Shown here one piece after another: positions 12,878 to 33,377 of a DNA stretch of 64,000 nt. The position numbers and the translations under genes were made by a program. Source of the DNA: Strobilurus pachycystidiatus (Eukaryota > Basidiomycota > Agaricomycetes > Agaricales > Physalacriaceae); contig JAHLMK010000028.1 in NCBI GenBank assembly GCA_019915135.1, positions 310,001-374,000 on the forward strand. The letters are read 5' to 3'. The stretch's first letter is position 1. Every line of letters begins with the position of its first letter. The notes beneath the pieces are model-generated. The model worked only from the letters and a program-made list of their open reading frames with translations, made no database searches and was not told the DNA's origin.

Positions 12878-13892
12878 TGACACGCTTTATGCGCGCCTGA
12901 GCCTAGAAACCGAGAATTTTGCGATTTCTAGATAAGACTCGAAGCCGAAATGCACGATACATCTAACGAAAGACCATAAGATTGCCAGTGATAATACGGA
13001 GACCTCATTAGGGCAAGAATGAGCCTCCAGGAGAAATTCATCTTCGAATATCACCATCCAAAGTGCCCACTTGATTTATCAAGTCAACATCACGTACACA
13101 TTCTTAAAGAGGACTCGTCTAAGAAACGAACTCGAGTTCCAAGTAATTCGGACTCGACTTTGTCAGTGTTGTTCATAGACGATTAGAGTTCGATTAGCTC
13201 ACTTCCTGCTGATGAGTAGAATGGGGTTAAGCTACAGAATGGTCTAGGTCAGCATAAATGGGGATGAAAGTCCAGTAATGTTATCACAAGATACAACTAT
13301 CCCCTTGGAATTCTAAGTCTAGAACCCACGATAGCACAAAATCGAGTAACAGCCGAGCTATTCGAAGAAGCCAATAAAGATAAAGATGATCAAGTGTTCT
13401 TCATGAATAATCCGCAGTATGCCAAGAGTGTTAAGAATCAAGAAGCCAAGCTTCTTCAGATCTCAGGTGATTAAATCTGACCTGAAATCAGTAGAGATTG
13501 GAACAAGCAGACAGATTGCGAACAACAAGTCAACGATCTACCATGGATCTTAGAGTGGATTCTTAAGCGAAATGAAGCTCTAGACTCAATCAGATAATCG
13601 AGACTGAATTGGTGACGCAATCTGAAGAATCCGAGTCGCAAAGAAGCATTCAGAACAATTAAGAGCCAAGAGAAGATGAACCCCATGTGATAGATTCGAC
13701 CGATAGCACGCAAGGATGTTGCAATCCGAGCTTGAAATTAGTCAACGTGGATCAACTCTAGAGGGTTCGTCATGAATAAACTGGCATAATAAGGAAATGG
13801 AAGCGCCTAGACTGGTGTCTACAGCGCGGAAATTAACTCCAAGTGGCTATTAGTTAGTAAGTTAAGATTAGTGTACAGTAGGGACCAGTTTG

Positions 13893-13899
13893 TATAAAA
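13893..13899 (+). promoter_or_regulatory. LTR TATA box
   Basis: TATAAAA in the context TTTGTATAAAAGAAG. The same sequence is at 32563-32569 in the 3' LTR. It would place the start of genomic RNA about 25-35 bp downstream. Confidence 0.6.
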
Positions 13900-13989
13900 G
13901 AAGCGTCGATACAGTATAGTAGTTTAGTTTAGTGACCCGCAGCCACCACGAGCCCACAAAGCTCTACTGTAGTAATCTAACTCTGTACA

Positions 13990-14035
13990 AAATCGAATTC
14001 GATTTGCACGCACCCAAAGAAACTCGAATTCGAGT
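13990..14035. repeat. Two perfect TCGA palindromes in the 5' LTR
   Basis: AAATCGAATTCGATTT (13990-14005) and ACTCGAATTCGAGT (14022-14035) are perfect palindromes. Both are kept at the corresponding place in the 3' LTR (first one 32657-32672). They belong to the element-wide motif family and would be at the start of the transcript. Confidence 0.85.
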
Positions 14036-14701
14036 CCAACCTAAGAACCAAAGAACAAACCTAACGCACTAAGAGCAAGGGTTTAGAACAAAAGTGAACT
14101 TAATCGAAGAGCAAAGTTCCTTGAATTCAACGTACTAGAGGCGGTGTTTCTGAGCATAGTATCTCCCTAGAGACACTACAGAGACTTTGCAGTCTGAGCC
14201 AGCCTTTCCCTAGAGAGGACCGTTCAGTCGCGAAAAGCGTTAACCAGCATAACCTCTTGAGAGTTCAAGTGCAATTCGAGCACGATTTGGTCTAAAACCC
14301 ACGCAAACACTAAGACTCGAAGAATAAGCTCCTACCGAGGTTATAAGAAACATACCAAGTGTGGCAATAGACTATTGTGTTCTTGATACAACCCCTCCAG
14401 CGCGAGGATTGTGAAAGTCGCATAGTTTAAGTTCAGTCAGAGGCTTGTGTATTGTTCCCTGAAAACCAGACGATTTGTCAATCGGTCAAAATCCCTATCA
14501 CCCCCTTCAAACTCGCACTTTGTGCACACCTACGTTTCTGTTACGCAAGAACCTTGTTTTTCAAGTGTAGTGTTGTAGTAAATCAAGCTCGATTTTCTAT
14601 TGCAAAAACCCAATATTCCAAAACCGCAGAAACCTTACTCTCATTCGGAGTATTAAGAGTTGTGTTGTTTGTTAGGTGTGATTATACGCCTCTAAAATAA
14701 C

Positions 14702-16531
14702 GTGCACATCAACTTTTTGGAGCCCACCGCGAGGGGGGTCCTATATTTTGATCAACCAAATCGGTGGTCTTTATATCCAAAAACGTCTAAGAAAGGCAGA
14801 CAGTCTGCTAAATACACCCGAAGTCAACTAGACGCAAACCCGGAAACACCACCGGTTGCTAGTGGATCTCGAATTGCTCCTGAAGAATCTGAACTACAAA
14901 GTGTCCAAGTAGGAACTAGAAGTTTAAGAAAGAGACCACGGGTAGGAGCCCTATTCAACGATCAACCAGAAAAAGTACGGGAAAAAGTTCGCAGGTTAGC
15001 TGAACATCCCCCGCCAATTCGAAGAAGATTAGCTCCTAGAAAGAGTTATTCTGATCTTGAACAATCCGAACTCGAATTTCTACTTTTAAGCCGAGCCTTA
15101 GAAAACTACCAAGATCTTTTAAACATTCCTACGTTTATACCTCCAAGAATGACTACTGTTCGAGCGCTAGTCATCGATGAATTTCCTTCTCTGAAGTGGA
15201 GAGAAGACATAAAAGACAAAAAGATACCCAAGTATGGCACCAGCAATGCGCCAAACTTCAATGGAAAATCGGAGAACATAGCCGATTTTCTAAGGGTGAT
15301 TGAACAAATCATTGGCGAGTCTGGTATTACGGATGAAGGCACGATGATTGAAATCGCGTGTAACTTTGTGCCAGAAACCATTCGAGACCAATGGTTAAAT
15401 ATGCCTACTTTCATTAGAGGAGAGTGGAAAGAATTCAAGTCGGCTTTGTTGTCTAGCTATAACAGAGGCAAAGATGACACCAAGTATTCTCTAGACGATC
15501 TAGAGGATGCTATTGTCAAATTCGAAAAACGGCCTGTTGACCACAAAGACAGGTGGAATGTTTTTCAAAGAGAAGTACTGCACATATTGCGGTACTTAGT
15601 TAAGAAGGGTGAAATCACGGACAAGAAAGCCGTGGAAAGAATCCAAGACTGTGTAACAAATGCAGTTTGGGCCAGTACTACTGGTCATTTAAGAACCAAC
15701 AAACCGGCAGCAACAACGGTGTTGGATTGGTACAACAACATCACCAATGTTGTAGGCGCTATTACCAGCGTGTTGGAAGAAACGGCAGTCTATAGGACCA
15801 AAGGGTCCCACAAGACAGAAACCGGTACTTCAAGAGTCAAGACTGAAGATTTGACGGATACCAATAGTGCACTCAATGCACTAAGGGATATCCTGATACA
15901 ATCAGAAAAAGCTAGAGAAAAGGATCGAGTAGAGATGGCGCGCGAGAAGGAAGAAAATCAAAAGAATCATCAACGATTCCTTGATACAATCAACGCTTCC
16001 TTGTTGAATGCGAGAACAATGAATTACCAAGATACCAATTCGATCTCGAATTTTGTTCAATCGGCACCTATCACTGTTCAACCGCCTATGGGTACGAACA
16101 GATCCAACCAGATACCCTATACGGGAGGGAACACTGCAAATCCGACTCGAATTTTGCAGAACCCTAACCGTCTGGTACCAGCTGGTCAAACTACGTCGTA
16201 TTCACAACCCGGGCGCTGCTTTTTCTGTGAAGAACCTGGTCATATGCGTGATCAGTGTAAGAAAAGATTTGACTTGCAAACGGAAGGTTGGCTAGTGATT
16301 ACGGAAGCCAACTGGGACTTTTTCAACAATGGCCTTCCGATTTTAAGAAAGGAAAGGGCTGGTGGAAAGTCACCTTTGCAACAGGTTCTTAAGTACAAAG
16401 AAGATAGTCTTCGAGAAGTTAAAGCGCAAACCACTATTGGGCAAACGGATGACTTCGCACCAGAAGACATGCGTCTGGATACCTCGTATGCAAATACTAT
16501 GGTACCTCACAATCAAGGGGGTTTCAACTGA
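14702..16531 (+). CDS. Gag, retrotransposon capsid/nucleocapsid protein
   Basis: The frame is open from 14696 to the TGA at 16529. The first ~150 residues are basic and lack any Met; the first in-frame ATG is at about 15150 (MTTVRALVIDEF). The central part (NIADFLRVIEQII, NMPTFIRGEWKEFK) has the helical pattern of a Ty3-type capsid. Near the C-terminus is one CCHC zinc knuckle, CFFCEEPGHMRDQC, for RNA binding. Start is uncertain: non-AUG initiation, a spliced leader supplying the ATG, or the ATG at 15150. It ends in a slippery heptamer that would feed the protease frame. Gag packages the genomic RNA in cytoplasmic particles. Confidence 0.88.
   Translation: MHINFLEPTARGVLYFDQPNRWSLYPKTSKKGRQSAKYTRSQLDANPETPPVASGSRIAPEESELQSVQVGTRSLRKRPRVGALFNDQPEKVREKVRRLAEHPPPIRRRLAPRKSYSDLEQSELEFLLLSRALENYQDLLNIPTFIPPRMTTVRALVIDEFPSLKWREDIKDKKIPKYGTSNAPNFNGKSENIADFLRVIEQIIGESGITDEGTMIEIACNFVPETIRDQWLNMPTFIRGEWKEFKSALLSSYNRGKDDTKYSLDDLEDAIVKFEKRPVDHKDRWNVFQREVLHILRYLVKKGEITDKKAVERIQDCVTNAVWASTTGHLRTNKPAATTVLDWYNNITNVVGAITSVLEETAVYRTKGSHKTETGTSRVKTEDLTDTNSALNALRDILIQSEKAREKDRVEMAREKEENQKNHQRFLDTINASLLNARTMNYQDTNSISNFVQSAPITVQPPMGTNRSNQIPYTGGNTANPTRILQNPNRLVPAGQTTSYSQPGRCFFCEEPGHMRDQCKKRFDLQTEGWLVITEANWDFFNNGLPILRKERAGGKSPLQQVLKYKEDSLREVKAQTTIGQTDDFAPEDMRLDTSYANTMVPHNQGGFN
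14718..14732 (+). promoter_or_regulatory. Candidate primer binding site
   Basis: TGGAGCCCACCGCG begins six bases after the 5' LTR, the usual place for a site complementary to a tRNA 3' end (TGG pairs with CCA). I could not match it to a known tRNA, and it does not match the three tRNA-like genes carried by the element. Self-priming is an alternative. Confidence 0.4.
16519..16525 (+). promoter_or_regulatory. Candidate -1 ribosomal slippery site, Gag to protease
   Basis: GGGTTTC is phased in the Gag frame as G GGT TTC, the X XXY YYZ pattern, one codon before the Gag stop. A -1 shift enters the protease frame, which is open upstream of this point. A G run is also where a base could have been undercalled. 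Confidence 0.5.
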
Positions 16532-16533
16532 GC

Positions 16534-17676
16534 TTGATGAAGGAAGAAGATACAGTATCTTTACCGGAAAGCTCATACGCTGTTAATACTCGAAGTCAGA
16601 ATAAGAATCAGAACGGTTTACAATTCGAAACCGAAATGCCTAAGACTACAGTACCGACTAAGACGGTATGGCCAAGACAGAGGGTCACGGTAGAAATACC
16701 AAAGCGACCTACTACAACAGTTCAACCTAAGCAAGTTAGCTTTGAAGATAAAGGTGAAGAAGACAGTTCATCTGACGAAGAGTCAGAAGGTGGGGAAGTT
16801 GAAAAGCAAGTAAAAGACGCTGCTAATCAACCAGAACCGAAAATCGAACTCGATTTACCTAAATCTTCCACGGTAGATTCAACTCTACCTAAAATAGAAA
16901 AGTTCAAGTCGTACAAAAGAAAATCGGAAATCGATTTGCTTCTTGAAGAAAATCCTCAATGGAAAGAAGCTTGGAAGGAACTTTTACCAGAGAAGTTACT
17001 TGCAACTAACATTGAGTGGCGAAAGAACCTAGAGAAATTGTTAAAGACAAGGAATGTTAAGACTACCTCTAAGCATGTCTATTCGATTTCACAAATCGAG
17101 TCTGAAGAGGTCCCTAAAGGGTCAATAGTCGTACAAGATCCTATAGAACAATTTTTCAACACGACGCAATTTCAAGGACCATACCATGTCTCTAAGTTGT
17201 ACATGGCACCAGAAAGTGTAGACCTCAGAACCCTATGGTTAAGAATCAACCATGGAAATCGAAAAGAGTGTCTCCTAGACGGGGGATCACAGATTGCCTC
17301 GATGTCTCTCAAGACAGCATTTGAGCTCGGTTTAGCGTACGACCCAAGTTTTAAGATCACTATGGAAAGTGCAGATAAAGGAAGAACGGTAACATTAGGC
17401 TTAGCGCGAAATGTACCGGTAAACTGTGAAGGAATCGTGTATTACCTTCAGTTTCACATTCTACAAGATCCTGCCTATGACATTCTACTGGGTAGACCGT
17501 TTGAGACTGTGTCTCAAGCAAGCCTACAAACGTCGGCGGCCGGTCTAACCACAGTAACTGTTGTAGACCCAGGGAATGGCCAAAGAATGACTTTACCCAC
17601 TTATGCAAGGGGTCAGATACCAAGTCATCAAACTAAGGCTGAACCCGTGGGTTTTCACCCAAACTCGAGGACTTGA
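16534..17676 (+). CDS. Aspartic protease region of Pol
   Basis: The frame lies -1 to Gag and is open upstream of the listed start, so it is probably expressed as a Gag fusion by frameshift. After a Lys/Glu/Ser-rich linker (about residues 1-200) comes a retropepsin-like domain: ECLLDGGSQIASM with the catalytic Asp in a DGGS variant typical of this agaricomycete lineage, then a downstream ILLGRPF flap/C-terminal motif. It cleaves the polyprotein in the particle. The frame ends at TGA 17674, overlapping the next frame by 34 bases. Confidence 0.8.
   Translation: MMKEEDTVSLPESSYAVNTRSQNKNQNGLQFETEMPKTTVPTKTVWPRQRVTVEIPKRPTTTVQPKQVSFEDKGEEDSSSDEESEGGEVEKQVKDAANQPEPKIELDLPKSSTVDSTLPKIEKFKSYKRKSEIDLLLEENPQWKEAWKELLPEKLLATNIEWRKNLEKLLKTRNVKTTSKHVYSISQIESEEVPKGSIVVQDPIEQFFNTTQFQGPYHVSKLYMAPESVDLRTLWLRINHGNRKECLLDGGSQIASMSLKTAFELGLAYDPSFKITMESADKGRTVTLGLARNVPVNCEGIVYYLQFHILQDPAYDILLGRPFETVSQASLQTSAAGLTTVTVVDPGNGQRMTLPTYARGQIPSHQTKAEPVGFHPNSRT
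17649..17655 (+). promoter_or_regulatory. Candidate -1 ribosomal slippery site, protease to pol
   Basis: GGGTTTT is phased G GGT TTT in the protease frame and lies inside the 34-base overlap with the next frame, which is again -1. It is nearly the same heptamer as at the Gag end. Confidence 0.5.
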
Positions 17677-18194
17677 ACGAATATCAAGGAGAGTTGGCAT
17701 TGGTGATTGAGAAGGGTCTGAATGGTGAAATCAAGATTAAGCAAACGTATGTTCCAAATGGTGGGCAGGACACGTTTGACCCAGAAGCAATAACTAGTCT
17801 GTACCTTCGAAAATCCTCGGATAGAGTGAATCAACTAGTAAAACCAATTCGAAATCAGTATCGATTTATGAAACAAGGAGTGGAACCGTTCATGGTAACA
17901 CCACCTAGTAAATCGAATTCGATTTTCCCTACTAAAGAAGTATTTGGTTTTAAGAAGTTGTTCGATATTCGAAAAGAGAAATTCGACTTGGATTTGCCAG
18001 AAATCAAAGCCATGTCTACCATGGACATGTTTTATGGCGTACCTAATGGACTAGAAGAAGTGTTCAGTAATTTCAAGGTATCAATGCCTATAGATTATGT
18101 TGGACAAGCAAGAAAGGAATTCCTTTCGAATATCAAGGAAGAAAGAAGTAGTCGGGAGTATTTGCTACGAAGAAATATAAACCCGTACACTTGA
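17673..18194 (+). CDS. Pol linker segment between protease and reverse transcriptase
   Basis: This open frame lies -1 to the protease frame and reads back to 17643. It has no catalytic motif. Its length and character (EYQGELALVIEKG, IFPTKEVFGFKKL) fit the spacer that precedes RT in related agaricomycete Ty3 elements. Its end overlaps the RT frame, again -1. Coding similarity passes from this frame to the RT frame near 18156-18160 (into VFATKKYKP). No canonical slippery heptamer is present at this third junction, so it may be a mutation, a base-call error or splicing. An AG at 18150 after a GT at 18078 also restores frame. Confidence 0.65.
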   Translation: MNEYQGELALVIEKGLNGEIKIKQTYVPNGGQDTFDPEAITSLYLRKSSDRVNQLVKPIRNQYRFMKQGVEPFMVTPPSKSNSIFPTKEVFGFKKLFDIRKEKFDLDLPEIKAMSTMDMFYGVPNGLEEVFSNFKVSMPIDYVGQARKEFLSNIKEERSSREYLLRRNINPYT

Positions 18195-20023
18195 AGACCA
18201 AGGCTCACTTAGGAACCTTACCAGAAGAATTTCGGATTCAACGACATATTGTAGGAGATCCCTTAAAAGATATGCCTCAGTTATCGGAAAATCCGCCCGA
18301 ATTTGTACCAACTGGACGCTATACAGCGGAACGTAGGGAACAGATTCAAGATGACCATACTGGAGATTTCCTATGGCCGGAAGAACGGAAACTGTTGGAC
18401 CATTTTATGTGTCTACAGAATGAAGGATTTGCTTGGGAGGAAACAGAAAAGGGGAAATTCAGAGAGGATTTCTTCCCGCCTGTTGATATGCCAGTAATAC
18501 CTCATACTCCTTGGGTGTTAAAGAACATACCTATACCGCCAGGAATCTATGAAGAAGTATGCAAGATCATAAAACACAAAATCGATTCGGGAGTATACGA
18601 GCCTTCGAACTCGTTGTATAGAAGTCGATGGTTTTGTGTTGTCAAGAAAGATGGAAAGAAACTGAGATTAGTCCATAGTCTGGAACCGTTGAACGCGGTT
18701 ACCATTGCTCACTCAGGTCTACCTCCAGCCACTGAAGAATTAGCAGAGGCTTTTGCGGGTTTGTCTTGCGGAGGGACATTAGATTTGTATGTAGGATACG
18801 ATGAAAGAATGTTGGCCACTAGCAGTCGCGATATGACTACATTTTCTACACCGTATGGAGCATTAAGACTAAGAACCTTGCCTATGGGATGGACCAATTC
18901 GGTTCCGATTTTCCATGACGATGTAACTTACATCTTAAGAGACGAGATACCAGCTTTTACACGACCTTATATTGACGATGTGCCAGTAAAAGGACCAAGT
19001 AGCAGGTATCAACAAGCAGATGGTACTTACGAAACCCTCAAATCGAACCCGAAAATCTGCCGGTTCATTTGGGAACACTTTTGTAACATGAATCGTATTG
19101 TCCAGCGTATGAAATATGCTGGAGGTACTTTTTCAGGTTTGAAAGCGGTTATCTGTGCTGAAGAAATCACTGTAGTTGGACATGTATGTACATACTATGG
19201 AAGAAAACCAGCGGAAGAAAGAGTAAAGGTCATTTCAGACTGGCCCGCTTGTCAATCGCTTACTGAAGTACGATCGTTCTTAGGAACGGCTGGAATCTTT
19301 AGGGCGTTTGTTAAGGATTACTCTAAGAAAGCTCGACCGTTGACTTATTTGACTAAGAAGATCATACCCTTTAAGTGGGGAGATGAAGAACAAGCAAGTA
19401 TGGACGAGTTAAAAAGAGCAATAGAGACTTGCCCCATGTTAAAACCTTTAAGATATGACTGGGATACTCCAATCATTCTATCTGTGGATACTTCATATCA
19501 AGCAGTAGGGTTTTATCTGTCGCAATTCGATCCCGAAGAACCTAAGAAGCAGTACTTTGCGAAATTCATGTCGATTACCTTGAATGAGCGAGAAGCTAGA
19601 TATTCGCAAGCGAAAAGAGAATTGTTTGGCTTGTATCGGGCTTTGATGCACTGCAAATATTACTTGCTAGGATGTCGAAAGCTGAAAATCGAAGTGGATG
19701 CCAAATACATTAAAGGAATGTTGTCGAACGTTGACTCATTGGCGAATGCTAATTTACAACGTTGGGCAGAAGAAATTTTGATGTATCACTTTACCTTAGT
19801 ACATGTGCCAGGTAAAGTACATGGTCCAGACGGTTTAAGCAGAAGACCCAGTTCAGAACTAGATATACAAGTTCCTAGACCAGATATTGATGAAGAAGAA
19901 GATGTTCTTCATATGTTTGAGTACGAAGAACCTGAAGACATAGAACTGAAAGATAAACCGGAACCGTTCGATTCATTCAAAGATTTGATTGATAATCGAA
20001 AGGTTTTGCTCAGACAATTGTAA
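18191..20023 (+). CDS. Reverse transcriptase and RNase H
   Basis: The RT domain shows RWFCVVKKDGKKLRLV, a palm motif DLYVGYDERM, LPMGWTNSVPIFHDD and the catalytic YIDD box at about residue 260. The connection and RNase H follow, with Asp/Glu/Asp residues in ILSVDTSYQAVGF, AKRELFGLYRAL and KIEVDAKYIKGM. It ends in HVPGKVHGPDGLSRR plus an acidic tail. RT copies genomic RNA to DNA and RNase H frees the polypurine primers. The frame opens at 18152, upstream of the listed TTG. The TAA stop is fused to a TCGA palindrome and could instead be the start of an intron leading to integrase. Confidence 0.92.
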   Translation: MKTKAHLGTLPEEFRIQRHIVGDPLKDMPQLSENPPEFVPTGRYTAERREQIQDDHTGDFLWPEERKLLDHFMCLQNEGFAWEETEKGKFREDFFPPVDMPVIPHTPWVLKNIPIPPGIYEEVCKIIKHKIDSGVYEPSNSLYRSRWFCVVKKDGKKLRLVHSLEPLNAVTIAHSGLPPATEELAEAFAGLSCGGTLDLYVGYDERMLATSSRDMTTFSTPYGALRLRTLPMGWTNSVPIFHDDVTYILRDEIPAFTRPYIDDVPVKGPSSRYQQADGTYETLKSNPKICRFIWEHFCNMNRIVQRMKYAGGTFSGLKAVICAEEITVVGHVCTYYGRKPAEERVKVISDWPACQSLTEVRSFLGTAGIFRAFVKDYSKKARPLTYLTKKIIPFKWGDEEQASMDELKRAIETCPMLKPLRYDWDTPIILSVDTSYQAVGFYLSQFDPEEPKKQYFAKFMSITLNEREARYSQAKRELFGLYRALMHCKYYLLGCRKLKIEVDAKYIKGMLSNVDSLANANLQRWAEEILMYHFTLVHVPGKVHGPDGLSRRPSSELDIQVPRPDIDEEEDVLHMFEYEEPEDIELKDKPEPFDSFKDLIDNRKVLLRQL

Positions 20024-20137
20024 ATTCGAGCTCGGTTTTCTGGCCTGGCAAGTATAAAGAACAAAGAGACTTAGCTCTTAGCGGAGCAGTTTCGATTGAA
20101 GAACTAGAAGGATGGCTAGCAATGGATGAATTCCCAG
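20020..20137 (+). other. Candidate intron joining RT to integrase
   Basis: GTAAATTCGAGCTCG begins on the RT stop codon and a CCCAG acceptor ends at 20137. Removing these 118 bases joins the RT frame directly to the open integrase frame (LLRQF into VTSPKRETNWELLLP). A shorter acceptor at 20082 would give another open frame that also ends early. The body contains the same AT-rich TCGA palindrome seen in the cargo introns. Confidence 0.45.
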
Positions 20138-20177
20138 CGTTACCTCGCCTAAACGAGAAACTAACTGGGAGCTTCTT

Positions 20178-21554
20178 TTGCCTTATATGCAAGATTATAT
20201 ACTTGATCCTGAGAAGGAATTTGTGTCGCTAACGGAATCAGAAGTAGCCCAATTACAAGAGTGGAGCAAAGATTTCTTTATCCGACATGAAAAGCTATAT
20301 AAGAAAGATAAGGATGGAGCACATAAGAGAGTAATACAAAAATCGAGTCGATTTGCTATTGTAAAACGACTGCATGACTCGAATGGACATAAGGGCCAAT
20401 ACTCAGTGCTTCAGCTAGTCAAGAAGAGATTTTGGTGGCCTGGATTGGACACTGATATCAAATGGTATACGAAGACTTGCATACTATGCCAGAAGAGACA
20501 AAAGACCCTTATAAGGACCGAACCTGTGATTACTTCAACACCTGGTATATTCGAGCGAGCCTATATTGACACGTTTCGAATGCCAAAATCGGGTTCGAGT
20601 TCCTCAAAGGTTGATAAATACAAAGACTATAACGCAGTAACCGTAGCAAGGTGTGGACTCACTGGATGGCCAGAAGCTCGAGCGTTGAAGGTAGAAAACT
20701 CAGAAACGCTAGGTGAATGGATATTCGAAGACATACTATGCAGATGGGGTTGTCTTAAGGAAATCGTAACCGATAATGGTCCAGCGATCCTAAAAGCTAT
20801 ACGTTATATTGAAGACAAGTATGGTATAAAGGGTATTGCAATCACGCCGTACAACAAGACGGCTAACGGAAAAGTAGAAAGAGGACATTGGGATATCAGA
20901 CAGTCACTATTCAAAGTTTGCAAAGGCAATCCTGAACAATGGCCGCAATTCCTCCATGAAATTCTTTGGGCTGAAAGAATCACAGTCAAAAGATCCATAG
21001 GAACGTCCCCCTTTTACGCTGTAACAGGTTGCGATCCCATTCTACCATTAGATTTGGAAGAAGTAACTTGGTTAGTGGATACACCAGATAAAATCGTATC
21101 GACATCCGATTTACTAGCTTATCGAGCAAAACAGCTCATCAAGCACAAGGAAGATGTAAAAGAAATGAAGAAGCGAGTTACCCTCAACAAGAAGAAAGCA
21201 GCTTCGAAATTCATGGATGATTTTGTCAATAGCATTCCTCGTTATCAATTCGATACTGGAGATTTGGTATTGGTAAGAAACACTAGAATTGAGAAGGAAA
21301 TGAACGCAAAGTTCAAAGAAAGGTTCATGGGACCATATGCTGTAGTGGCAAGAACTACTGCAAATAATTACATCTTGTGCGAACTAGATGGCACTGTATT
21401 GAAAGACAAAATCGCTCAATTTAGGGTCATACCGTTCTACTCAAGAAAAGAACCTATTTTCTTGGGGCATAAATTCTTTGAAGCACTTAAGAGAATCAAG
21501 GAAGGCGCTAAGAAAATAGTAGATGACTTGTCAAAGATGGGTAGAAAAGATTAA
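20178..21554 (+). CDS. Integrase
   Basis: The frame is open from 20130 and the listed start is a TTG. The N-terminal zinc-binding module is HDSNGH followed by CILC (HHCC). The catalytic core has Asp in AYIDTFR, Asp in VTDNGP and Glu in GKVERGHWD, the DDE triad. The C-terminal part has a GPY-type motif (MGPYAVVARTT) and a basic tail. No chromodomain was seen, so it is not an obvious chromovirus. Integrase inserts the cDNA, consistent with the 4-5 bp target duplication. It is followed by a palindrome GAATTC-centred sequence 12 bases after the stop. Confidence 0.92.
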   Translation: MPYMQDYILDPEKEFVSLTESEVAQLQEWSKDFFIRHEKLYKKDKDGAHKRVIQKSSRFAIVKRLHDSNGHKGQYSVLQLVKKRFWWPGLDTDIKWYTKTCILCQKRQKTLIRTEPVITSTPGIFERAYIDTFRMPKSGSSSSKVDKYKDYNAVTVARCGLTGWPEARALKVENSETLGEWIFEDILCRWGCLKEIVTDNGPAILKAIRYIEDKYGIKGIAITPYNKTANGKVERGHWDIRQSLFKVCKGNPEQWPQFLHEILWAERITVKRSIGTSPFYAVTGCDPILPLDLEEVTWLVDTPDKIVSTSDLLAYRAKQLIKHKEDVKEMKKRVTLNKKKAASKFMDDFVNSIPRYQFDTGDLVLVRNTRIEKEMNAKFKERFMGPYAVVARTTANNYILCELDGTVLKDKIAQFRVIPFYSRKEPIFLGHKFFEALKRIKEGAKKIVDDLSKMGRKD

Positions 21555-21722: not shown

Positions 21723-21802
21723 TGGTCATATTGGGAATCGAACCCAAGTCCCCCCTAGAATTCTAAGAGAATAGGGGGATGCGACCATTACACCATATGA
21801 CC
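21723..21802 (-). tRNA. tRNA-like gene 1 (80 nt, expanded anticodon arm)
   Basis: The minus strand folds as a tRNA. It has a perfect 7-bp acceptor (GGTCATA with TATGACC), a D arm TGGTGTAATGGTC matching box A, a perfect 5-bp T stem and loop GGTTCGATTCC matching box B, and an A discriminator. CCA is not encoded, as in nuclear genes. The anticodon stem CCCCT/AGGGG encloses 16 nt instead of 7, so a ~9-nt intron is likely. The anticodon depends on stem register: CTC (Glu) or TCT (Arg). A T5 run 25 nt downstream fits a Pol III terminator. Confidence 0.72.
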
Positions 21803-21889
21803 TTAAAGTACAAGAAGGATTGGTGAATCCCCTGAGCCAAAATTCCATCGAAAAAGAAAAAGATCAGATGCCGAAGCCGCAAACTAAAG

Positions 21890-21979
21890 TGGCGTCACTT
21901 GGATTTGAACCAAGATCCCTCCTGGCAACACTGAAGCCCGGAATAATCGAGGAGGATGTTACCATTACACCATGATGCC
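21890..21979 (-). tRNA. tRNA-like gene 2 (90 nt, ~19-nt insertion in the anticodon loop)
   Basis: Acceptor GGCATCA pairs with TGACGCC (one A-C mismatch). The D arm TGGTGTAATGGTA is almost the same as in gene 1. The anticodon stem CTCCT/AGGAG and T stem CTTGG/CCAAG are perfect, and box B is GGTTCAAATCC. The anticodon loop region is 26 nt, implying an intron of ~19 nt, but U33 and the anticodon cannot be fixed. Two T5 runs follow downstream. It may be functional, relaxed or a tRNA-derived transcript with another role. Confidence 0.62.
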
Positions 21980-22112: not shown

Positions 22113-22185
22113 GGGACATAAGTGGATTCGAACCAACTGAAATCTATCACAATAGATAGATGTGTTACCACTACACAATATGGCC
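22113..22185 (-). tRNA. tRNA-like gene 3 (73 nt, 8-nt anticodon loop)
   Basis: Full canonical length with D arm TTGTGTAGTGGTA (perfect GTGT/ACAC stem), anticodon stem TCTAT/ATAGA and box B GGTTCGAATCC. The acceptor and T stems each have one mismatch. The anticodon loop CTATTGTG has eight bases instead of seven. With U33 in place the triplet would be ATT. A T5 run at 22085-22089 follows. The three genes share their 5' halves, suggesting amplification from one ancestor followed by divergence. Confidence 0.58.
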
Positions 22186-22823: not shown

Positions 22824-25024
22824 ATGCCTCAACCTATTGCATCCACGTCGACCTATGATTCGCAGCGAACTATCCCTACACAGTCAAGTGGGCAAGGTAG
22901 AGCTGAAAGAATAAAGGATCTGGGCAAACGAATGGGAAGATTGAGCGTTGAAGAAGTAAGTCAAATCGAGAAGATACGAATAAGACTTGACTCGATTTTA
23001 GTCGCAACCAGCTGGTCAGCACAAAGAGTCGAGAAAAGGAAAAGAAAAGGCTCGAGTAAGAAATTCGAGCATGACTTTTCATTAGGCTAATCACTGTGAC
23101 AATAGACAGTTGACGCAGCGATGGAACCAGAGACAAGGGACAGTTCGCATGAAAACGAGGTAGGTAGAAAATCGAAGTTCGATTTTCTACTTAGTTAACA
23201 TTTCGAACTAAGACCCCGCTTATGGCTCTAATGCCAATCGAAAAGTTCTGGACCAACCCAAAGAACAATGGAGAGCTTCATGCCTATGCGTTCTCGAGCC
23301 AAGTCGACTATCGGTGGAAACTCAACCTAAGTCTACTAGAACGACAGGAATTCATACGAGGCAACATGGACAAGATCAAGGAAATCCTTATTCGAAAAGG
23401 TATCGATAACCGCGATCTACATGTGGCTAAGTCTTGGTGTTACCTGGTAACGGCAGTGATAGTCGACCCAGTGTTCCAGAAAGCAGACCCGAATAGCCGT
23501 TGGTGGCGCCTAGCCGGTCTAGATTCGTTGATGGCCAAAGCTGTCAATGGTGCCTTGGAGAAAGGGAAGGGTTCCAATCGACCTATCCCCGCCGTCGAAA
23601 CACCGCCAACAAAGTTCCTGTACTTCGGCAATACAAATCTTCCCAGCAAGTACCGCATTCGACCTTCACATGAAGTGTGTGGGGACATTGTGCTTGGAAA
23701 GCGGCGGATTTACGAAGTAGCCATGGAGCACTTCAACCAGCAGATCCCCCCGCATAACCACTTCGACGTATTCTTTTGGACATCGCTACAGCAGGCGGTA
23801 ACATTCGAGAAAATCGAAATCGAAAATTCGTTTTACTACGTGCTGGACAAGGCGATATCCGAAGGTCTGAAGAAGATGTTCAACAGAGAACCGACAACCT
23901 CGGGACTTAGAGAGTTCTTCGACTTCGACGCAAGACAGGATCTTAACATAGAACCTTTCACACGTCGACCCGAAGACCAGGATTGGCACCTGGTAATTGA
24001 ATCAATCTCGTACCGGAGAGAAATGTATAAAGTCCCGAAGATGCGAAAAAGAGAAGAACCTGCGCCCGTGCCCAAAACCTTGCAAAAGGACCAGGCGAAG
24101 GCAATGGTAGAAGCTCCAACAAGGGAGATGAAAGAGGTAAGAAAATCGAATTCGAAGTTCTATTCGAGCTAGATTTAATTGGTCGATTTAGAAGACCACA
24201 AAGAAAGCCAACGCTAGAAAGAGCGAGTTGGAAAAGACCAAGAAGAGAGTAAGTAGAAATTCGATTTCGAATTTCTATAAACTAACTTACACTCGAAGAA
24301 ATATAACGAACTGTCGTTCATTACTGAACCCAGAACGTTAGAAGAAGAGGAAGAAGACCGTGGGCCGCCACCACCAAAGAAGGTCAAGCAACAGTACAAG
24401 AGCAAATCGAGCTCGAAAACTGTTCCGCCCGCGCGTCCTCCAACCCCTCCACCAGTAGCCTCATCATCCAGAGTCCAACTCCCTGCGAAGCTCGACTTGG
24501 GACCAGTATTGGGTATGGAGACTGACGACGACTCTCATCGAACTCAGGATCCACCTAAGCAGAAGAGTCCAAAGAAGTCGAAGGTGAACGAACCCAAGGC
24601 CACGAAAATCGACAGTACTGGGGCAGTGTACACTAACAAGGAGGTTCAAGAACGAATTGACACCCTCAATTCGTGCTCGAATTGCTTGAAGGGTCACAGG
24701 GAATGTACTTGGGTTGCGGTTAACGAGCAACTTTGGGAACCCCAGGCGGCCAAAGTCAAGATTCGAATTTCTTGCGACACTTGCCATGACCGTCGAGTAA
24801 TGTGCCAACCACCCGATGTCGATGGTGGTTTCTTCTATCACCAAGCCAAGAAGATACCCGCCTTCGAAAAGATGAAGGATACGTTGGAAAGCAAGGGTAC
24901 CGAGCTGAGGGATGCTGAAAGACGCATCAAGGATTTGGAAGAAGAGCTGCAGAAGGAGAAAGAGGCCAAGAAGAAGTTAGAAAAGAAGTTGGCTAAGGAT
25001 AAGAAGAAGAGAGCAAGAGAGTAA
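22824..25024 (+). CDS. Cargo gene A: two-half zinc-cluster and coiled-coil protein, 661 aa
   Basis: Five exons join in phase: 22824-23055, 23110-23159, 23213-24136, 24195-24248, 24299-25024. The N-terminus is short and Ser/Arg-rich. The large third exon (IEKFWTNPKNNGELHAYAF onward, ~300 residues) has no domain I recognise. A basic, Pro-rich linker follows. Near the C-terminus are two Cys triplets, CSNCLKGHREC and CDTCHDRRVMC, each C-x2-C-x6-C and about 22 residues apart. This is the Zn2Cys6 pattern with an unusually long spacer. A ~60-residue charged coiled coil ends the protein. It is likely a dimeric nucleic-acid-binding protein. Introns 2-4 contain TCGA hairpins. The stop codon overlaps a perfect palindrome. 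It is paralogous to gene B in promoter, C-terminus and 3' end. Confidence 0.8.
23164..23190. repeat. Perfect hairpin in gene A intron 2
   Basis: GTAGAAAATCGAA, one G, then the exact reverse complement: 13-bp arms. It starts four bases after the 5' splice site of the 53-bp intron 23160-23212 and takes up half of it. Confidence 0.9.
24254..24277. repeat. Perfect hairpin in gene A intron 4
   Basis: TAGAAATTCGA, two T, then TCGAATTTCTA: 11-bp arms beginning directly after the donor GTAAG. A CTAAC branch-point-like sequence follows at 24281. Confidence 0.9.
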
Positions 25025-26435: not shown

Positions 26436-27894
26436 ATGCCCATGAAAGACATCGTAGCCGCTATGGACCAGACTCAAAACAAGGGACAGCTTAGGGTTGG
26501 CGGAGTCAACATCACGAAGGGCCATAACTTCTTGTTCTTGGGCCGGAAACATGTGGACCCCCTCATTTATGTCCCCGTCTTCTCCACACAAGCCACTGCA
26601 GCTCAGTTGTGGTACTTCCCGGATTCGTTGCGCAAGCTAGCGCCCAAACACCATTTCTACGAATTCGCGGCTCGATATGCTAGCACCATCAATCCGCTCG
26701 ACTTCCAACTGGAATTCGAGATCGAAAAGGTCGATGCCCTGCTTTTCGAAGCCTACGTGCTATGGTTCGTTTGGACGCTTGCACAAGGAGAACCGGAGCG
26801 GGAAGATGAAATCGACATTGAGTGGATGGTTCAAGAATACGAGGTTTTGCTGAGCTCGGTAAAGATTCAAGTATAGACAAGATTCGGACTGAAGCTAATA
26901 AAACCTTCTAGCCGCAACTTGTCTTGAAACAGATGCGAGAAATCGCAGAAGAAAAAGAGTGGCCTCTGGAACGGCCTACAGTGTTCAATGAAGAGGTAAG
27001 TAAAGAAATTCGAACGCGAATTCCTTACTTAACAAAGATAAGATTTTCTTTGACGATGAAGAAGACGAGTCCGCCTCAGAAACGGACAGTGAAGATCAAG
27101 AATCGGAGTTGACAACCAGAAACTCGACCCCGAAATCCTCCACACCCCTTTCCACGCCCAAGCCTAGACCTCGACCCACTCCGTTGAAGTCTGCCGAAGC
27201 GAAGGCAAGGATGGAGAAAGAAAAAGGGAAGCCAGCTAGAGCTGAGACACCGGTAAGAAAATCGACTTTGAATATCTTCAATTTGAATGAGATTTTCTTA
27301 TGCCCTGTCCAGCGCACCCCCATAGCTTCTACTTCCAAGCAAGCGTTGGAACCCGAACCAGGAAATTCGCCTTCGAATTCCCTGCCAACGCCCAAGGCCC
27401 TTTCTCATTCCCCTCAGCCAGCGCCTAAACGAATTCGAAAGCGAAAACGTGCCGCGACCCCAGTGGAGGAGGAAGAGGAAGCGCCAGAGCCCAAGAAACC
27501 GAAGACCAATTCGAAGCCGAAATCCTCCACTAGCCGCCCGTCCAAAGCGGACAAGCACGGCAAAGTGTTGGACAACAAGGCGATGCAGAAGAAGATCAAC
27601 GTGGATCGCAAGTGTCTCACCTGCGAGCAGCGAGGGCAAGAGTGCACTTGGGAGTATATGCTGAATCAGCGGGACCACCCAGACACTGTCAAGACGAAGA
27701 CTTGTGTATCTTGCGACCGTTGCCGGGTCAAAAGGTACACTTGTTCACCGCCCAAGCGCCGCTACGATTACTTCAAGCACAAATCCAAGAAGGATGTCGA
27801 ATTGGACAAGGCGGCTGAAGAGTTGACGAAGGCAAAGGAAGAGATCGACAAGCTGAAGAAGAAGTTGAAGAAGGCGAAGAAAGCGAAGGAGTGA
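26436..27894 (+). CDS. Cargo gene B: two-half zinc-cluster and coiled-coil protein, 432 aa
   Basis: Four exons join in phase: 26436-26858, 26912-26995, 27043-27252, 27313-27894. The first ~140 residues (PLIYVPVFSTQATAAQLWY) form a domain I do not recognise. An acidic stretch, a Pro/Lys/Ser-rich linker and a basic nuclear-signal-like run (KRIRKRKR) follow. The C-terminus has CLTCEQRGQEC and CDRCRVKRYTC, two C-x2-C-x6-C half clusters, then a Lys/Glu coiled coil. The layout matches gene A's C-terminus, so the two are diverged paralogues. Intron 2 folds with its own 5' splice site in the stem. Intron 3 pairs TAAGAAAATC with GATTTTCTTA. Probable nuclear DNA- or RNA-binding protein. Its role in the element is inferred only. 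Confidence 0.8.
26996..27033. repeat. Hairpin including the 5' splice site of gene B intron 2
   Basis: GTAAGTAAAGAAATTCG pairs with CGAATTCCTTACTTAAC around a 4-nt loop with one mismatch and one bulge. The donor GTAAGT is fully paired. Confidence 0.8.
27254..27300. repeat. Hairpin including the 5' splice site of gene B intron 3
   Basis: TAAGAAAATC (27254-27263, from the second base of the donor) and GATTTTCTTA (27291-27300) are perfect 10-bp arms with a 27-nt loop. Confidence 0.8.
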
Positions 27895-28126: not shown

Positions 28127-28141
28127 AAAGTTAAAGGGAGA
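28127..28141 (+). promoter_or_regulatory. Internal second polypurine tract (central-PPT-like)
   Basis: AAAGTTAAAGGGAGA is identical over 15 bases to the tract bordering the 3' LTR (31533-31547). It lies between the convergent gene pairs A/B and C/D. It could prime plus-strand DNA synthesis at a second site. Confidence 0.55.
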
Positions 28142-28157
28142 CATATAAGAAATGTAA

Positions 28158-29327
28158 CTACTCCCTCCAATGTGGCTCTATACAAAAGTGTCGAAACAAA
28201 GGACTGTTACCTCTATTATACAGCCTAGTATAAAAAGTATAAAGTTGTTCAGGCAACAAGGAAGCTACAACGTGTTGTAAGAGGCGAATGTCCGCAGCAG
28301 AGGCAGTTGACCAAGTAATTTCCCAAAAACGTTTAGGTATATTGGGAAAATCCTGGTCGATAAGCCTGTTAAGAAAGAAGTCAGAAATTCGAATTCGAGT
28401 TTCTAACAAATGCTTACGTGGGATATATAGGGCCTGCAGCATTAAGACCTTGGCGAAGAGTAGAGAAACTGAACTCGCGATCCCGAAATAGTCCTTGACT
28501 ACCAGGCATAGGGTCAAGAACCCGGTCTTCATAGAACCGTGGAATCCAAGTAATCAGCTCGCGAATGTACACTGGAATGCCTCGCGTGGAGGGAGGGATG
28601 CTGCGCATCCATTCGACGTCCTCGGGTGACATTATGGTGTTCAAGTACCGAGGCAATGATTGTTCGGTAGAAAAGAACGCGGTTTCCTATGAAGTGATAA
28701 GAAAATCGATCTCGAATTTCTAAGCCAAGAAAAATAACATACCAAAGATCGCATGGTAACCGCTAGGAACTTCTCTCGAAATTCACCAAATGACAAGTGA
28801 ATAATCGACTCGGGTAAGATATGGGGAAGAGTAACCCCGTCCAATCCTCGAAGCGGTTCCTCGTGAAAGAAGGACATCACAAGATGCCAACAGAGAATGT
28901 ACATAGACAAAAAGCTATTTTCCACACCACGAGCAGTAACGGGGGCAACATGTCGCCATAAGTTACTGTAGCGTCGCTAGGAGGATAGTCAGAGAAATTC
29001 GAACAAGGAATGCTAGCTCGATTTTCTCACCAGCACATACACCATATACCGCAAGGTAGGAACGTCCAAGTTACCGTGGTGTCCACCAAAGAAAAGATGA
29101 CGATCCGTATGGAAAGCCGTCTCTCGATGATCCACGTCGCCCAAGCTACCGTCGGGCTCTCGTTCCACCATCACAAAGTCGCGGTGTACGCTATAAAGAT
29201 CCAGAGCGGACGCAACCGCTAATTCAGCCTCGAGAAACACGGCAACATCGTCGGGAATAATGGCGAAGCTGGAGTGAAGATTGCGGAACCTAAGTTCGCA
29301 GAGAAAAGGGAAATTCATCTGAGTCAT
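28158..29327 (-). CDS. Cargo gene C: unknown protein, 335 aa
   Basis: Four exons on the minus strand join in phase: 29327-29031, 28976-28743, 28686-28418, 28365-28158. The protein starts MTQMNFPFLCELRF and ends FCIEPHWRE. It is rich in aromatic and hydrophobic residues with moderately spaced helices (ENSFLSMYILCWHLVMSFF), without clear transmembrane or catalytic motifs that I recognise. All three introns contain TCGA palindromes, with arms such as GAGAAATTCGA against TCGATTTTCTC. It is antisense to gag-pol, so its introns cannot be spliced from the genomic RNA. Intact frames in four exons argue that it is under selection or was recently acquired. Confidence 0.75.
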
Positions 29328-29687: not shown

Positions 29688-31288
29688 CTAAGGGACCAAA
29701 GAATCAGTCGCGGCCAGGTACAGGTCCCTCGTGCGCAGGAAGGTTTGAACCTCCCCGTGAGCCCTGTTCATGGTCAAGGACAACTCGTGGCGATAGCCGT
29801 GTTCCGCGGCTACCATCGACGCGGAAAGAGCCAAGTCCGCGGGAAGCGCAGCCAAGATCTGCATTCTGCGAACAATGGCAGAACTGGCACCTTGGTAAGC
29901 GTTGACCAACTGAGCGGCTGTCAAGAAAACAAATTCGAGTTAGATACACCCAAAATCGAAATCGAATTTGTTACTCACTAGAAGACAACTGATCAATGAG
30001 GACGGGTTCGATGTTAAACCCAGCGGGTTTAAGAGCCTTGGCCATCCTCTTGGATTCAGGAAGAGCAACAGTGGCCTTGCGCTTGGGAGCCGTCTCCAAC
30101 TGAGCAGTAGGAATGGATCCCGACGTCGCCACAGCCTTGTGATACAAGGAAGAATTAGTATCCAGGCCGGGTACTTCACAATAGTAAAGATATTTTACCG
30201 AGCGAGCAGACTATATAGAAGTCAAAAATCGAGCTCGAAAAGCTAAAGAGCCAATAACTCACGGCTTCAGAGGCTGTAGAAGCGGGAGGTGTAGCAACCT
30301 CGACCACTTCTTCATCGCTATCCTCTTCGTCGGAAGACTCCACGGAGAGCTGTTTAAGAAAAGCAGCCAGATCAGCCTCGTAATCTAGACCGAAAAGGCA
30401 TCAGAAGCTTACTTCGGAGTCGGAAGAGTTTACTTCACCCATTTCTGAATGATCATCAGCCCATTGGAAGCCATTAGTAAAAGAAGATTTACTAATGTCG
30501 CCAGAGGCAAATCGAATAGGATCGTCCAGAACGGTGGAAGAAGAAGAAGCCTTCTATAACATAAGACATAAGAAATTCGAACTCGAAACACAGAAAATCG
30601 AAATACGAACCAGAACCTTGAGCTTGTTCTTACCCTTGGGTTCGGGAGATTTAGCCTTCTCCTTACCCTTGGAAGAGGAAGCCTCGATGAGTTTCTTCCA
30701 TTTGGGATGGAGGGGATGGATCGAAGGAAGGCTGGCAGCTTCCGCCGCGATAGTACCCTTCTTGGTGCAAGTCATGACGAACGCGTTAAGCACGTTGGCC
30801 AGGTTAACGGTATGCAAGTGAGGGCTGACACCCAACTCGGAAACCGCCAAACCTAAGAACGAGCGAAGATTGCAGGAAAACGTGGCGAGCTTCTCGGGAT
30901 AGATGCAACCGGAGACGTTGTCCTTGGGAAGGTTCGCTCCCTTATAAAGATTTTAGAAAATCGAGCACGAATTCATAAGAAGAGAAAATCGACTCACAAG
31001 AACCTTGATGATGACCATGTCCAAAGACGCGGCCTTATCCTTGGCGGAAGCCTTGGAGCGGTCCATGTACTCGACCGATTTAAGGACCAAGGGACAGAGG
31101 CTGTTGTAAAGCGTCAAGACGGCGGGAACCAAACCCGTAGCAGGCGGATCCCAATATTTAATATGGATGAAGAGCGCTTTGCCATCAGCGAGGCGACGTT
31201 CAACTAGCTCGGGAACGGTGTCGGGAGCCTCATCAGGGATAAGGTTGACGATTCCGGTCCACGATTTCTTGGAAACAAGAGAAGGCAT
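29688..31288 (-). CDS. Cargo gene D: unknown protein with acidic centre, 411 aa
   Basis: Six exons join in phase: 31288-30998, 30940-30611, 30553-30413, 30349-30263, 30135-29979, 29917-29688. The N-terminal ~200 residues (SLVSKKSWTGIVNLIPDEA, TVNLANVLNAFVMT) look like a compact helical domain. The middle has Lys-rich and Ser/Asp/Glu-rich segments (ESSDEEDSDEEVVEV). The C-terminal ~75 residues are helical and Ala-rich (ALPADLALSASMVAAEHG). I recognise no family. Four of five introns carry TCGA palindromes; intron 5 has perfect 11-bp arms. A TTAAATAG TATA-like box lies ~80 bp upstream on the minus strand. Possibly a nuclear or chromatin-associated protein. Confidence 0.75.
29928..29972. repeat. 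Perfect hairpin in gene D intron 5
   Basis: AACAAATTCGA (29928-29938) and TCGAATTTGTT (29962-29972) are perfect 11-bp arms with a 23-nt loop. On the minus strand the stem begins five bases from the donor GTGAG. Confidence 0.9.
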
Positions 31289-31532
31289 TGTGAGAAGTGT
31301 AGAAGAATTTCGAGGGTGAAATGGTTAGCAGGTGCTGGGGCAAATCGACCAGAAACCGCCGACTATTTAACCAAGTTGCAAAGATAACACGAAGACCCAG
31401 CGAGCGCTTTGTTCGCGCCAACTGGAGTTGGGATTGCATCCGTGCAGACAAAACCCGAAGAGAGAACCAGAAAAATAAGCGAAATGAATTATGGTTCAGG
31501 GTGAAGATCTTGATGTTGCGGACAACATATCG

Positions 31533-31547
31533 AAAGTTAAAGGGAGA
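31533..31547 (+). promoter_or_regulatory. Polypurine tract
   Basis: AAAGTTAAAGGGAGA directly abuts the TG of the 3' LTR, the expected primer for plus-strand DNA synthesis. Confidence 0.85.
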
Positions 31548-33377
31548 TGACACGCTTTATGCGCGCCTGAGCCTAGAAACCGAGAATTTTGCGATTTCTA
31601 GATAAGACTCGAAGCCGAAATGCACGATACATCTAACGAGAGACCATAAGATTGCCAGTGATAATACGGAGACCTCATTAGGGCAAGAATGAGCCTCCAG
31701 GAGAAATTCATCTTCGAATATCACCATCCAAAGTGCCCACTTGATTTATCAAGTCAACATCACGTACACATTCTTAAAGAGGACTCGTCTAAGAAACGAA
31801 CTCGAGTTCCAAGTAATTCGGACTCGACTTTGTCAGTGTTGTTCATAGACGATTAGAGTTCGATTAGCTCACTTCCTGCTGATGAGTAGAATGGGGTTAA
31901 GCTACAGAATGGTCTAGGTCAGCATAAATGGGGATGAAAGCCCAGTAATGTTATCACAAGATACAACTATCCCCTTGGAATTCTAAGTCTAGAACCCACG
32001 ATAGCACAAAATCGAGTAACAGCCGAGCTATTCGAAGAAGCCAATAAAGATAAAGATGATCAAGTGTTCTTCATGAATAATCCGCAGTATGCCAAGAGTG
32101 TTAAGAATCAAGAAGCCAAGCTTCTTCAGATCTCAGGTGATTAAATCTGACCTGAAATCAGTAGAGATTGGAACAAGCAGACAGATTGCGAACAACAAGT
32201 CAACGATCTACCATGGATCTTAGAGTGGATTCTTAAGCGAAATGAAGCTCTAGACTCAATCAGATAATCGAGACTGAATTGGTGACGCAATCTGAAGAAT
32301 CCGAGTCGCAAAGAAGCATTCAGAACAATTAAGAGCCAAGAGAAGATGAACCCCATGTGATAGATTCGACCGATAGCACGCAAGGATGTTGCAATCCGAG
32401 CTTGAAATTAGTCAACGTGGATCAACTCTAGAGGGTTCGTCATGAATAAACTGGCATAATAAGGAAATGGAAGCGCCTAGACTGGTGTCTACAGCGCGGA
32501 AATTAACTCCAAGTGGCTATTAGTTAGTAAGTTAAGATTAGTGTACAGTAGGGACCAGTTTGTATAAAAGAAGCGTCGATACAGTATAGTAGTTTAGTTT
32601 AGTGACCCGCAGCCACGAGCCCACAAAGCTCTACTGTAGTAATCTATCTCTGTACAAAATCGAATTCGATTTGCACGCACCCAAAGAAACTCGAATTCGA
32701 GTCAAACCTAAGAACCAAAGAACAAACCTAACGCACTAAGAGCAAGGGTTTAGAACAAAAGTGAACTTAATCGAAGAGCAAAGTTCCTTGAATTCAACGT
32801 ACTAGAGGCGGTGTTTCTGAGCATAGTATCTCCCTAGAGACACTACAGAGACTTTGCAGTCTGAGCCAGCCTTTCCCTAGAGAGGACCGTTCAGTCGCGA
32901 AAAGCGTTAACCAGCATAACCTCTTGCGAGTTCAAGTGCAATTCGAGCACGATTTGGTCTAAAACCCACGCAAACACTAAACTCAAAGAATAAGCTCCTA
33001 CCGAGGTTATAAGAAACATACCAAGTGTGGCAGTAGACTATCGTGTTCTTGATACAACCCCTCCAGCGCGAGGATTGTGAAAGTCGCATAGTTTAAGTTC
33101 AGTCAGAGGCTTGTGTATTGTTCCCTGAAAACCAGACGATTTGTCAATCGGTCAAAATCCCTATCACCCCCTTCAAACTCGCACTTTGTGCACACCTACG
33201 TTTCTGTTACGCAAGAACCTTGTTTTTCAAGTGTAGTGTTGTAGTAAATCAAGCTCGATTTTCTATTGCAAAAACCCAATATTCCAAAACCGCAGAAACC
33301 TTACTCTCATTCGGAGTATTAAGAGTTGTGTTGTTTGTTAGGTGTGATTATACGCCTCTAAAATAACGTGCACATCA
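31548..33377 (+). repeat. 3' long terminal repeat
   Basis: 1830 bp, matching the 5' LTR. It keeps the TATA box at 32563 and the palindromes. Compared with the 5' copy it lacks three bases near 32616 and one near 32979. Confidence 0.97.

Follow-up and report, generated by a model that had tools for sequence, protein, structure and literature searches.

How does a long terminal repeat (LTR) retrotransposon come to carry, behind its pol gene, a further block of four intron-bearing genes on both strands, and do these genes belong to the element or merely travel with it? The locus that raises this question occupies positions 12878-33377 of a 64,000-nucleotide stretch of the Strobilurus pachycystidiatus genome (the window hereafter), which is part of the 51.8 Mb assembly of 61 contigs that we searched, and constitutes a single Ty3-type LTR element of 20.5 kb. 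We consider it probable that the element represents a giant Ty3-type LTR lineage, and that the approximately 10 kb following pol form an old block of accessory genes belonging to the element itself.

The block contains genes A and B in the sense orientation, followed by C and D in the antisense orientation. Gene A (22824..25024, plus strand; 5 exons, 662 amino acids) displays, by eye, a CX2CX6C...CX2CX6C motif and a coiled-coil-like tail, and gene B (26436..27894, plus strand; 4 exons, 432 amino acids) is a paralogue of the C-terminal region of A (28.6% identity, E 1.7e-15). Genes C (28158..29327, minus strand; 4 exons, 335 amino acids) and D (29688..31288, minus strand; 6 exons, 436 amino acids) match no Pfam family at cut-off. 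All four genes are open across 19 exons, which join in frame around 15 GT-AG introns, the same counts as in the original prediction made from the letters of the window; of the four protein lengths given there (661, 432, 335 and 411 residues), those of B and C stand, while A and D become 662 and 436 in our models. A 415-residue model of D was dropped because the stretch that it splices out encodes residues conserved in two sister families.

The reverse transcriptase (RT) piece of the element yielded 72 scored matches in the genome out of 332 candidates, so that the counts that follow are lower bounds: 20 at 98-100% identity (family 1, the window copy included), 44 at 80-81% (family 2) and 8 at 80% (family 3), the families being split by identity and frame length, with a 1303-codon frame in most family 3 copies. 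In 15 of the 20 family 1 loci the 5' LTR, RT, a region of tRNA-like genes, B, C, D and the 3' LTR follow in this order on the expected strands, and the distance from RT to D is 12202-12430 bp in 15 of the 20. B, C and D lie downstream of RT in 19 loci, the exception being C9:761982. Places with no scored family 1 RT nearby amount to 3/22 for D, 3/22 for C and 6/25 for B, where one of 26 rows was merged into the same place.

The same architecture extends to the sister families. The family 2 copy on contig C20, a 16.4-kb element with LTRs of about 1.67 kb, bears behind pol a sense cysteine-motif gene and antisense C' and D' genes, and the same trio is found in the family 3 copy on C31; the order and strands of the Zn-motif protein (sense) and of C and D (antisense) are common to all three families. 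Family 2 Pol has 36 long matches (of 442 candidates) that are 99-100% identical. The D' exon of the C20 copy has 78 matches, comprising 52 full-length ones at 85% identity or above, 19 family 3 matches at 49-50%, and a remainder of 7 that are partial or odd. An antisense D' exon lies within 3-25 kb of 38 of the 44 family 2 RT loci (41 with three partial matches), at a distance of 8876-8947 bp in 23 of them, and in family 3 D' lies at most 25 kb away in seven of the eight RT loci (six at 9072-9104 bp) and at 33.7 kb in the other. Co-occurrence between the same LTRs at many loci, in three related families of one genome, thus bears out the original prediction of a giant gene-bearing lineage; the genes are neither confined to one place nor mostly found outside such elements, with the reservation that for many D exons of the sister families no RT was scored nearby, the number of scored RT matches being capped.

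Between families 1 and 2, identity is 30% in Gag, 44% in Pro, 66% in the integrase part and about 81% in RT, as against 24% in C and 29% in D; given these values, C and D diverge like Gag. Against diverged copies, the ratio of non-synonymous to synonymous substitution rates (dN/dS) ranges over 0.13-0.36 (A), 0.11-0.19 (B) and 0.19-0.29 (C), each from three copies of which some align only in part; D, compared with two copies, gives 0.09-0.22. Since stop codons occur in several of the diverged copies, the values mix constraint and decay. The young copies differ little, and their changes in B, C and D are mostly silent. Because the divergence of C and D is Gag-like, dN/dS against diverged copies is below 1 and no Pfam family is matched at cut-off, the description of the genes as cargo is unfitting. 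C and D look like old element genes, and "accessory block" is the better term; the original prediction thus holds in part.

That A-D are captured host genes merely carried, and kept through recent amplification as true cargo, is in our judgment quite unlikely. The presence of introns, as in captured genomic DNA, and the near-identity of the main-family copies, among which short-term hitch-hiking would look much alike, fit such an origin; against it stand the shared order of the Zn-motif gene, C and D in three families, the Gag-like divergence of C and D and the dN/dS values below 1. Furthermore, the genome matches of B, C and D sort by identity into the three element families, with few odd ones (C4:2555151, C18:738020 and a D-like gene on contig C3 that is described below), although with 3/22, 14/52 and 11/19 D exons of families 1, 2 and 3 lacking a scored RT partner, element membership is not shown for each.

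GT-AG is kept at 15/15 introns in four fully aligned copies, and in two partly aligned copies each intron readable at both ends keeps it; no intron loss was seen in these six copies, and the spliced exon 4-5 junction of A, the one junction searched, has no genome match at up to two mismatches. As the introns of A and B lie in the sense strand, the copies must derive from RNA in which those introns were retained.

Several observations weigh against an old and functional accessory block. In young copies of A, amino-acid changes number 2, 4 and 2 and silent changes 0, 1 and 0, which by itself gives no signal of constraint. The link between A and the Zn-motif proteins of the sister families is weak, with an hhalign E of 0.0098 at a probability of 4% that covers the cysteine motif only, and BLASTP found no match between A and the family 2 protein (A20). 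B does match the Zn-motif protein of family 3 (E 6.4e-6), and it also matches a profile of the two sister proteins (E 1e-7), there within sequence of low complexity. The predicted structure of the A-type domain is poor (mean predicted local distance difference test score, pLDDT, 49.3), too poor for comparison with a structure library. Contig C3 holds a D-like gene in three places, including C3:2544119 and C3:2808786; in L059 (C3:2782201-2784700) it is 40-45% identical to D over two stretches, and no element protein was found 5.6-10.7 kb to one side of this examined copy (L060, C3:2790001-2794000). This gene may represent a fourth family, or else a relative that stands on its own. Finally, parts of the block have been lost from a form of family 2 that nevertheless multiplied, and these parts may act in trans or be dispensable altogether.

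This deletion form (seen for example at L032, L033 and L034) accounts for 9 of the 44 family 2 loci, in which D' lies at 3827-3836 bp rather than the usual 8.9 kb or so. The breakpoints, from L010:8034 to L011:3120, coincide in 3/3 examined deletion copies, and the copies are about 97% identical to one another, from which it follows that the deletion form itself spread. It is devoid of A', C', about two thirds of D' and an internal polypurine tract described below; since it spread to nine loci, the block is not needed in cis. The reach of this form to 9/44 scored loci is what would be expected if the block were a passenger of old origin now useless to the element, but we regard this as highly improbable given dN/dS values of 0.09-0.36 and the full spacing that still prevails in 23/44 family 2 loci. 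In three more family 2 loci a partial D' exon stands at yet another common distance, 6133-6154 bp.

A second feature is kept together with the block. The terminal polypurine tract, AAAGTTAAAGGGAGA, at 31533..31547 (plus strand), recurs letter for letter at 28127..28141 (plus strand), between the convergent genes B and C. In family 2 the internal tract is an exact repeat of that family's own terminal version, TAAGTCAAGGGGAGA, and in family 3 it repeats its own terminal version with one mismatch, the spacing between the internal and terminal tracts being 3406, 3432 and 3431 bp in families 1, 2 and 3, respectively. The internal tract co-varies with the terminal one between families, and a chance copy of the tract appeared in 0/300 simulated sequences of the same dinucleotide frequencies. 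Six other family 1 pieces cover the place, of which four have the exact tract, that on C18 has one change and the old copy on C26 has none; the family 2 copy on C19 also holds the internal tract.

An internal tract at the start of a block whose genes, C and D, run in the opposite orientation is what a fused element might leave, so that the locus could be an artefact of assembly, or else nested or chimeric, a second element having entered a normal Ty3 element downstream of pol. As regards the present-day locus this is refuted and we give it next to no credence: the arrangement recurs on many contigs, with D spacing within the ranges given above in 15/20 family 1 and 23/44 family 2 loci, and no internal LTR pair was found within the window element. 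The mis-assembly of two nested elements against which the original prediction had warned is likewise contradicted by the recurrence of the same order at many loci. An ancient fusion may nonetheless have given rise to the C-D block.

The remainder of the element supports its assignment to the Ty3 type, which rests on domain order and Pol homologues. In the Gag open frame (14696..16531, plus strand; first ATG at 15149), translated over 14702-16531, residues 505-521 weakly match a CCHC knuckle, below the Pfam cut-off. The Pro frame (16453..17676, plus strand) encodes a retroviral-type aspartyl protease with a Pfam match below cut-off. Its motif reads, by eye, DGGS at 17278-17289, with the same letters in family 2; the usual aspartyl protease motif is DTG/DSG. 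Pol (17643..21554, plus strand) encompasses RT, RNase H and integrase, with Pfam matches above cut-off for RNase H and the integrase zinc domain. Pfam gave no RT match in the window copy, where YIDD is present by eye; RT is assigned through homologues of the RT piece; 7989 scored candidates yielded 959 of these, and some of them carry PF00078. Among the best 120 of these 959, the best-scoring relative is 63% identical across the full query, and the named relatives, at 55-61% identity, come from the Agaricomycetes Meripilus, Moniliophthora, Mycena and Armillaria. The Ty3/gypsy (Metaviridae) domain order of protease, RT, RNase H and integrase is therefore present, with the protease below cut-off and RT via homologues with PF00078, as are TG...CA LTRs, a short target duplication, a primer binding site and a polypurine tract, so that the inventory of the original prediction holds. 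A Pfam scan of window:20178-21551 revealed no chromodomain, which at the integrase C-terminus marks chromoviruses, though a diverged one could escape it, and the integrase has no relative among viral contigs.

Taken as a whole, this copy of the element is damaged: its pol is split by two extra frame breaks into 17643-18194, 18152-20023 and 20130-21554. In 10 of the 20 family 1 copies pol reads through as a single frame of 1304 codons, and the two breaks are not present in the C2, C5 and C26 copies; they represent either mutation or assembly error. Gag, Pro and Pol occupy three frames, with in-frame -1 slippery heptamers in the overlaps, GGGTTTC in gag/pro (16519..16525, plus strand) and GGGTTTT in pro/pol (17649..17655, plus strand). 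Both heptamers are in frame in 4/4 family 1 copies, the family 2 C20 copy and one family 3 copy; the family 2 C19 piece examined covers the second heptamer only.

The 5' LTR (12878..14711, plus strand) and 3' LTR (31548..33377, plus strand) are 99.35% identical over 1834 aligned positions, have TG...CA termini and are flanked by copies of the 4-bp target duplication GCGG at 12874..12877 and 33378..33381. The 5' LTR contains TATAAAA near 13893 (by eye) and two palindromes at 13993 and 14024. An LTR probe gave 40 scored matches (57 candidates) in the genome, every one 98-100% identical. Target tetramers were read at seven insertions with both flanks, one of them a solo LTR, and four with a single flank; three further 8-base LTR-start matches (L017, L021 and L029, one place each) were judged to be no LTR starts and omitted. 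The flanks agree in 6/7 pairs, the C30 pair being a mismatch. Given that CG stands at the centre of the tetramer in all 12 flank readings across families 1-3, the integrase seems to prefer NCGN targets. In the window the joined empty site is spanned by an open frame of 115 codons, and beside the element lie near-identical duplications (33690-35705 / 50231-52248 and 34962-37513 / 37513-40068; 99.9% and 99.3% identical, one tandem) that are real or an assembly effect.

The primer binding site (14718..14735, plus strand), which begins six bases past the 5' LTR, comprises 18 nucleotides that complement the 3' terminus of host tRNA-Lys(TTT), with the CCA included. Among the 20 host tRNA genes compared (of 63 listed), this one alone matched the site by at least 8 nucleotides, and family 2 has the same block (L010:826-843). 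Host tRNA genes also occur paired exactly 373 bp apart (C19:546031/546404 and C23:306468/306841), perhaps a duplicated stretch or another repeat.

Three tRNA-like genes on the minus strand, at 21723-22185 between pol and gene A, are an addition to the original prediction. Gene 1 (21723..21802) scores 44.7 bits with the Rfam tRNA model (cut-off 29), gene 2 (21889..21979), which has a long intron-like insert, 43.2 bits, and gene 3 (22113..22185) 41.0 bits; ARAGORN also reports genes 1 and 2. The 501-base region is complete at 18 places with 95-100% identity. Four other family 1 copies give scores of 36.7-41.7 bits for whichever of genes 1 and 3 they contain; gene 2 is unreported by Rfam there but detected by ARAGORN in 3/4, once with an odd loop. 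No such genes were found in the scanned family 2 and 3 pieces, a negative that rests mainly on scans other than the fast Rfam filter, which missed gene 2 in L022 where ARAGORN sees it. By eye, each gene is followed by a T-run at a distance of about 24-28 bases. In a comparison of folding energy with 200 shuffles, gene 1, trailer included, surpassed every shuffle (z -3.38), while genes 2 and 3 fold no better than shuffles (z -0.59 each). A role as decoding tRNAs is unlikely, as the anticodon loop of gene 3 varies among copies, being attg in younger and cttg in older ones; as reverse-transcription primers they were rejected, their 3' ends mismatching the primer binding site (by eye) where host tRNA-Lys fits.

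The 5' LTR and internal region also contain 24 copies of the palindrome TCGANNTCGA against 0.5 expected, as opposed to none in 43.5 kb of flanks (1.25 expected) and 0, 0 and 1 in sister pieces. A genome search with AAWTCGANNTCGAWTT found it at 179 places, while its reversed control occurred once, and 49 of the first 50 listed places fall within family 1 copies. Ten of the 15 introns contain two or more TCGA. Neither mobile insertion (no clean insertions in three diverged copies, by eye) nor site conservation (core identity 0.949, 0.846 and 0.931 against flank 0.954, 0.909 and 0.913) accounts for the palindromes, many of whose cores decay at their CpG. That A or B binds the palindrome is a guess, to which conservation gives no backing. 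A short-repeat array lies between A and B at 25460-25665 (by eye), and the alignment of this spacer to other copies has gaps.

What the accessory proteins might do we infer solely from their sequences. The cysteine spacing of A and B resembles that of Zn2Cys6 fungal transcription factors, though the scanned exons and spliced proteins of A and B gave no Pfam match to the Zn2Cys6 domain; the cysteine motif and coiled-coil-like tail would be compatible with regulatory proteins. A-D as a whole match no Pfam family at cut-off, with weak matches to DUF7179 for the tail of A (E 0.0037) and to DUF7124 for C (E 0.031). Searches requiring shared 5-residue words and similar length, which miss intron-split or distant relatives, found none for C among 1588 candidates and none for the three-family D profile among 7999, and a PDB sequence search gave no match for D and a single one for C at E 0.69. 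An env-like or infection module in an endogenous retrovirus-like agent, which the position behind pol and the retrovirus-like priming, frames and internal tract might suggest, is extremely unlikely, since family 1 A-D show no convincing membrane span (highest 19-residue hydropathy 1.23-1.53; family 2 D 1.74) and no Pfam match at cut-off, so that by hydropathy and Pfam no envelope protein with a membrane span was detected.

For the element with its accessory block, we propose that it most likely works in outline like a complex retrovirus without an envelope. The LTR promoter would make one long unspliced RNA, translated into Gag, Gag-Pro and Gag-Pro-Pol via the two -1 slippery sites. Host tRNA-Lys(UUU) would serve as first-strand primer at the 18-nucleotide site, and the long RNA would be copied to DNA with plus-strand starts at both polypurine tracts. 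A-D would be expressed from separate spliced mRNAs, those of C and D off the opposite strand, with A and B as putative nuclear nucleic-acid-binding regulators of the element. The block would act in trans, a proposal made because the form without most of it still spread. A more elaborate version, which we offer tentatively as possible but doubtful, is that A and B are the element's own regulators and recognise the near-private palindrome, that the genomic RNA stays unspliced despite seven sense introns, that the two tracts finish an 18-kb DNA, and that the tRNA-like RNA polymerase III genes set gag-pol apart from the block as a boundary in chromatin or in regulation.

With this architecture two questions become amenable to testing: the use of accessory genes to a retrotransposon that has no recognisable envelope, and the means by which introns survive the RNA stage of an element. 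The spread deletion form offers a natural comparison of elements with and without the block. Lentiviruses and beta/deltaretroviruses likewise combine a tRNA-Lys(UUU) primer, an internal polypurine tract and gag, pro and pol in three frames read with two -1 shifts; the resemblance is one of strategy and not of membership. We found no earlier description of such an element, a weak absence as most subscription papers lay outside the search. In the available parts of two fungal surveys, which describe complex transposons from multiple insertions (PMC3248453) and a large retrotransposon derivative (PMC3411680), nothing matches it.

Among known systems, judging by the accessible portion of PMC7264820, the nearest include the plant Ty3/gypsy elements Grande of maize, RIRE2 of rice and Retand of Silene, and Boty of Botrytis, which share antisense genes of unexplained function between pol and the 3' LTR; that of Grande encodes a nuclear protein from its own promoter. 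Unlike these, the present lineage has two antisense and one or two sense genes, all with introns, and combines a fungal host and Agaricomycete nearest named Pol relatives with tRNA-like genes (in family 1) and a second polypurine tract. The giant gypsy-like elements Ogre (16-25 kb) and Burro (over 30 kb), also among the nearest, are alike in size and extra coding capacity, but, as far as the partial account goes, Ogre owes its bulk mainly to its LTRs, and Burro to a single giant polyprotein together with accessory open reading frames (ORFs; PMC6431247), whereas here separate multi-exon genes lie on both strands. Juno and Vesta of bdelloid rotifers, with an acquired ORF3, similarly have extra ORFs behind pol common to families, but these include, in the part available, recognisable enzymes (GDSL, DEDDy; PMC5408684), in contrast to A-D. 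In Cer1/CERV of C. elegans a spliced accessory product is needed for export of unspliced element RNA, according to the section at hand of PMC10309623; our element must also keep introns in the RNA that is copied, and we cite this as precedent only, claiming no sequence relation. Extra genes in LTR elements are thus already known, in these partial accounts mostly as one or two unexplained ORFs; here a block of several intron-bearing genes, placed on both strands, has persisted while three families separated, and with it a second polypurine tract whose sequence tracks that of the terminal one.

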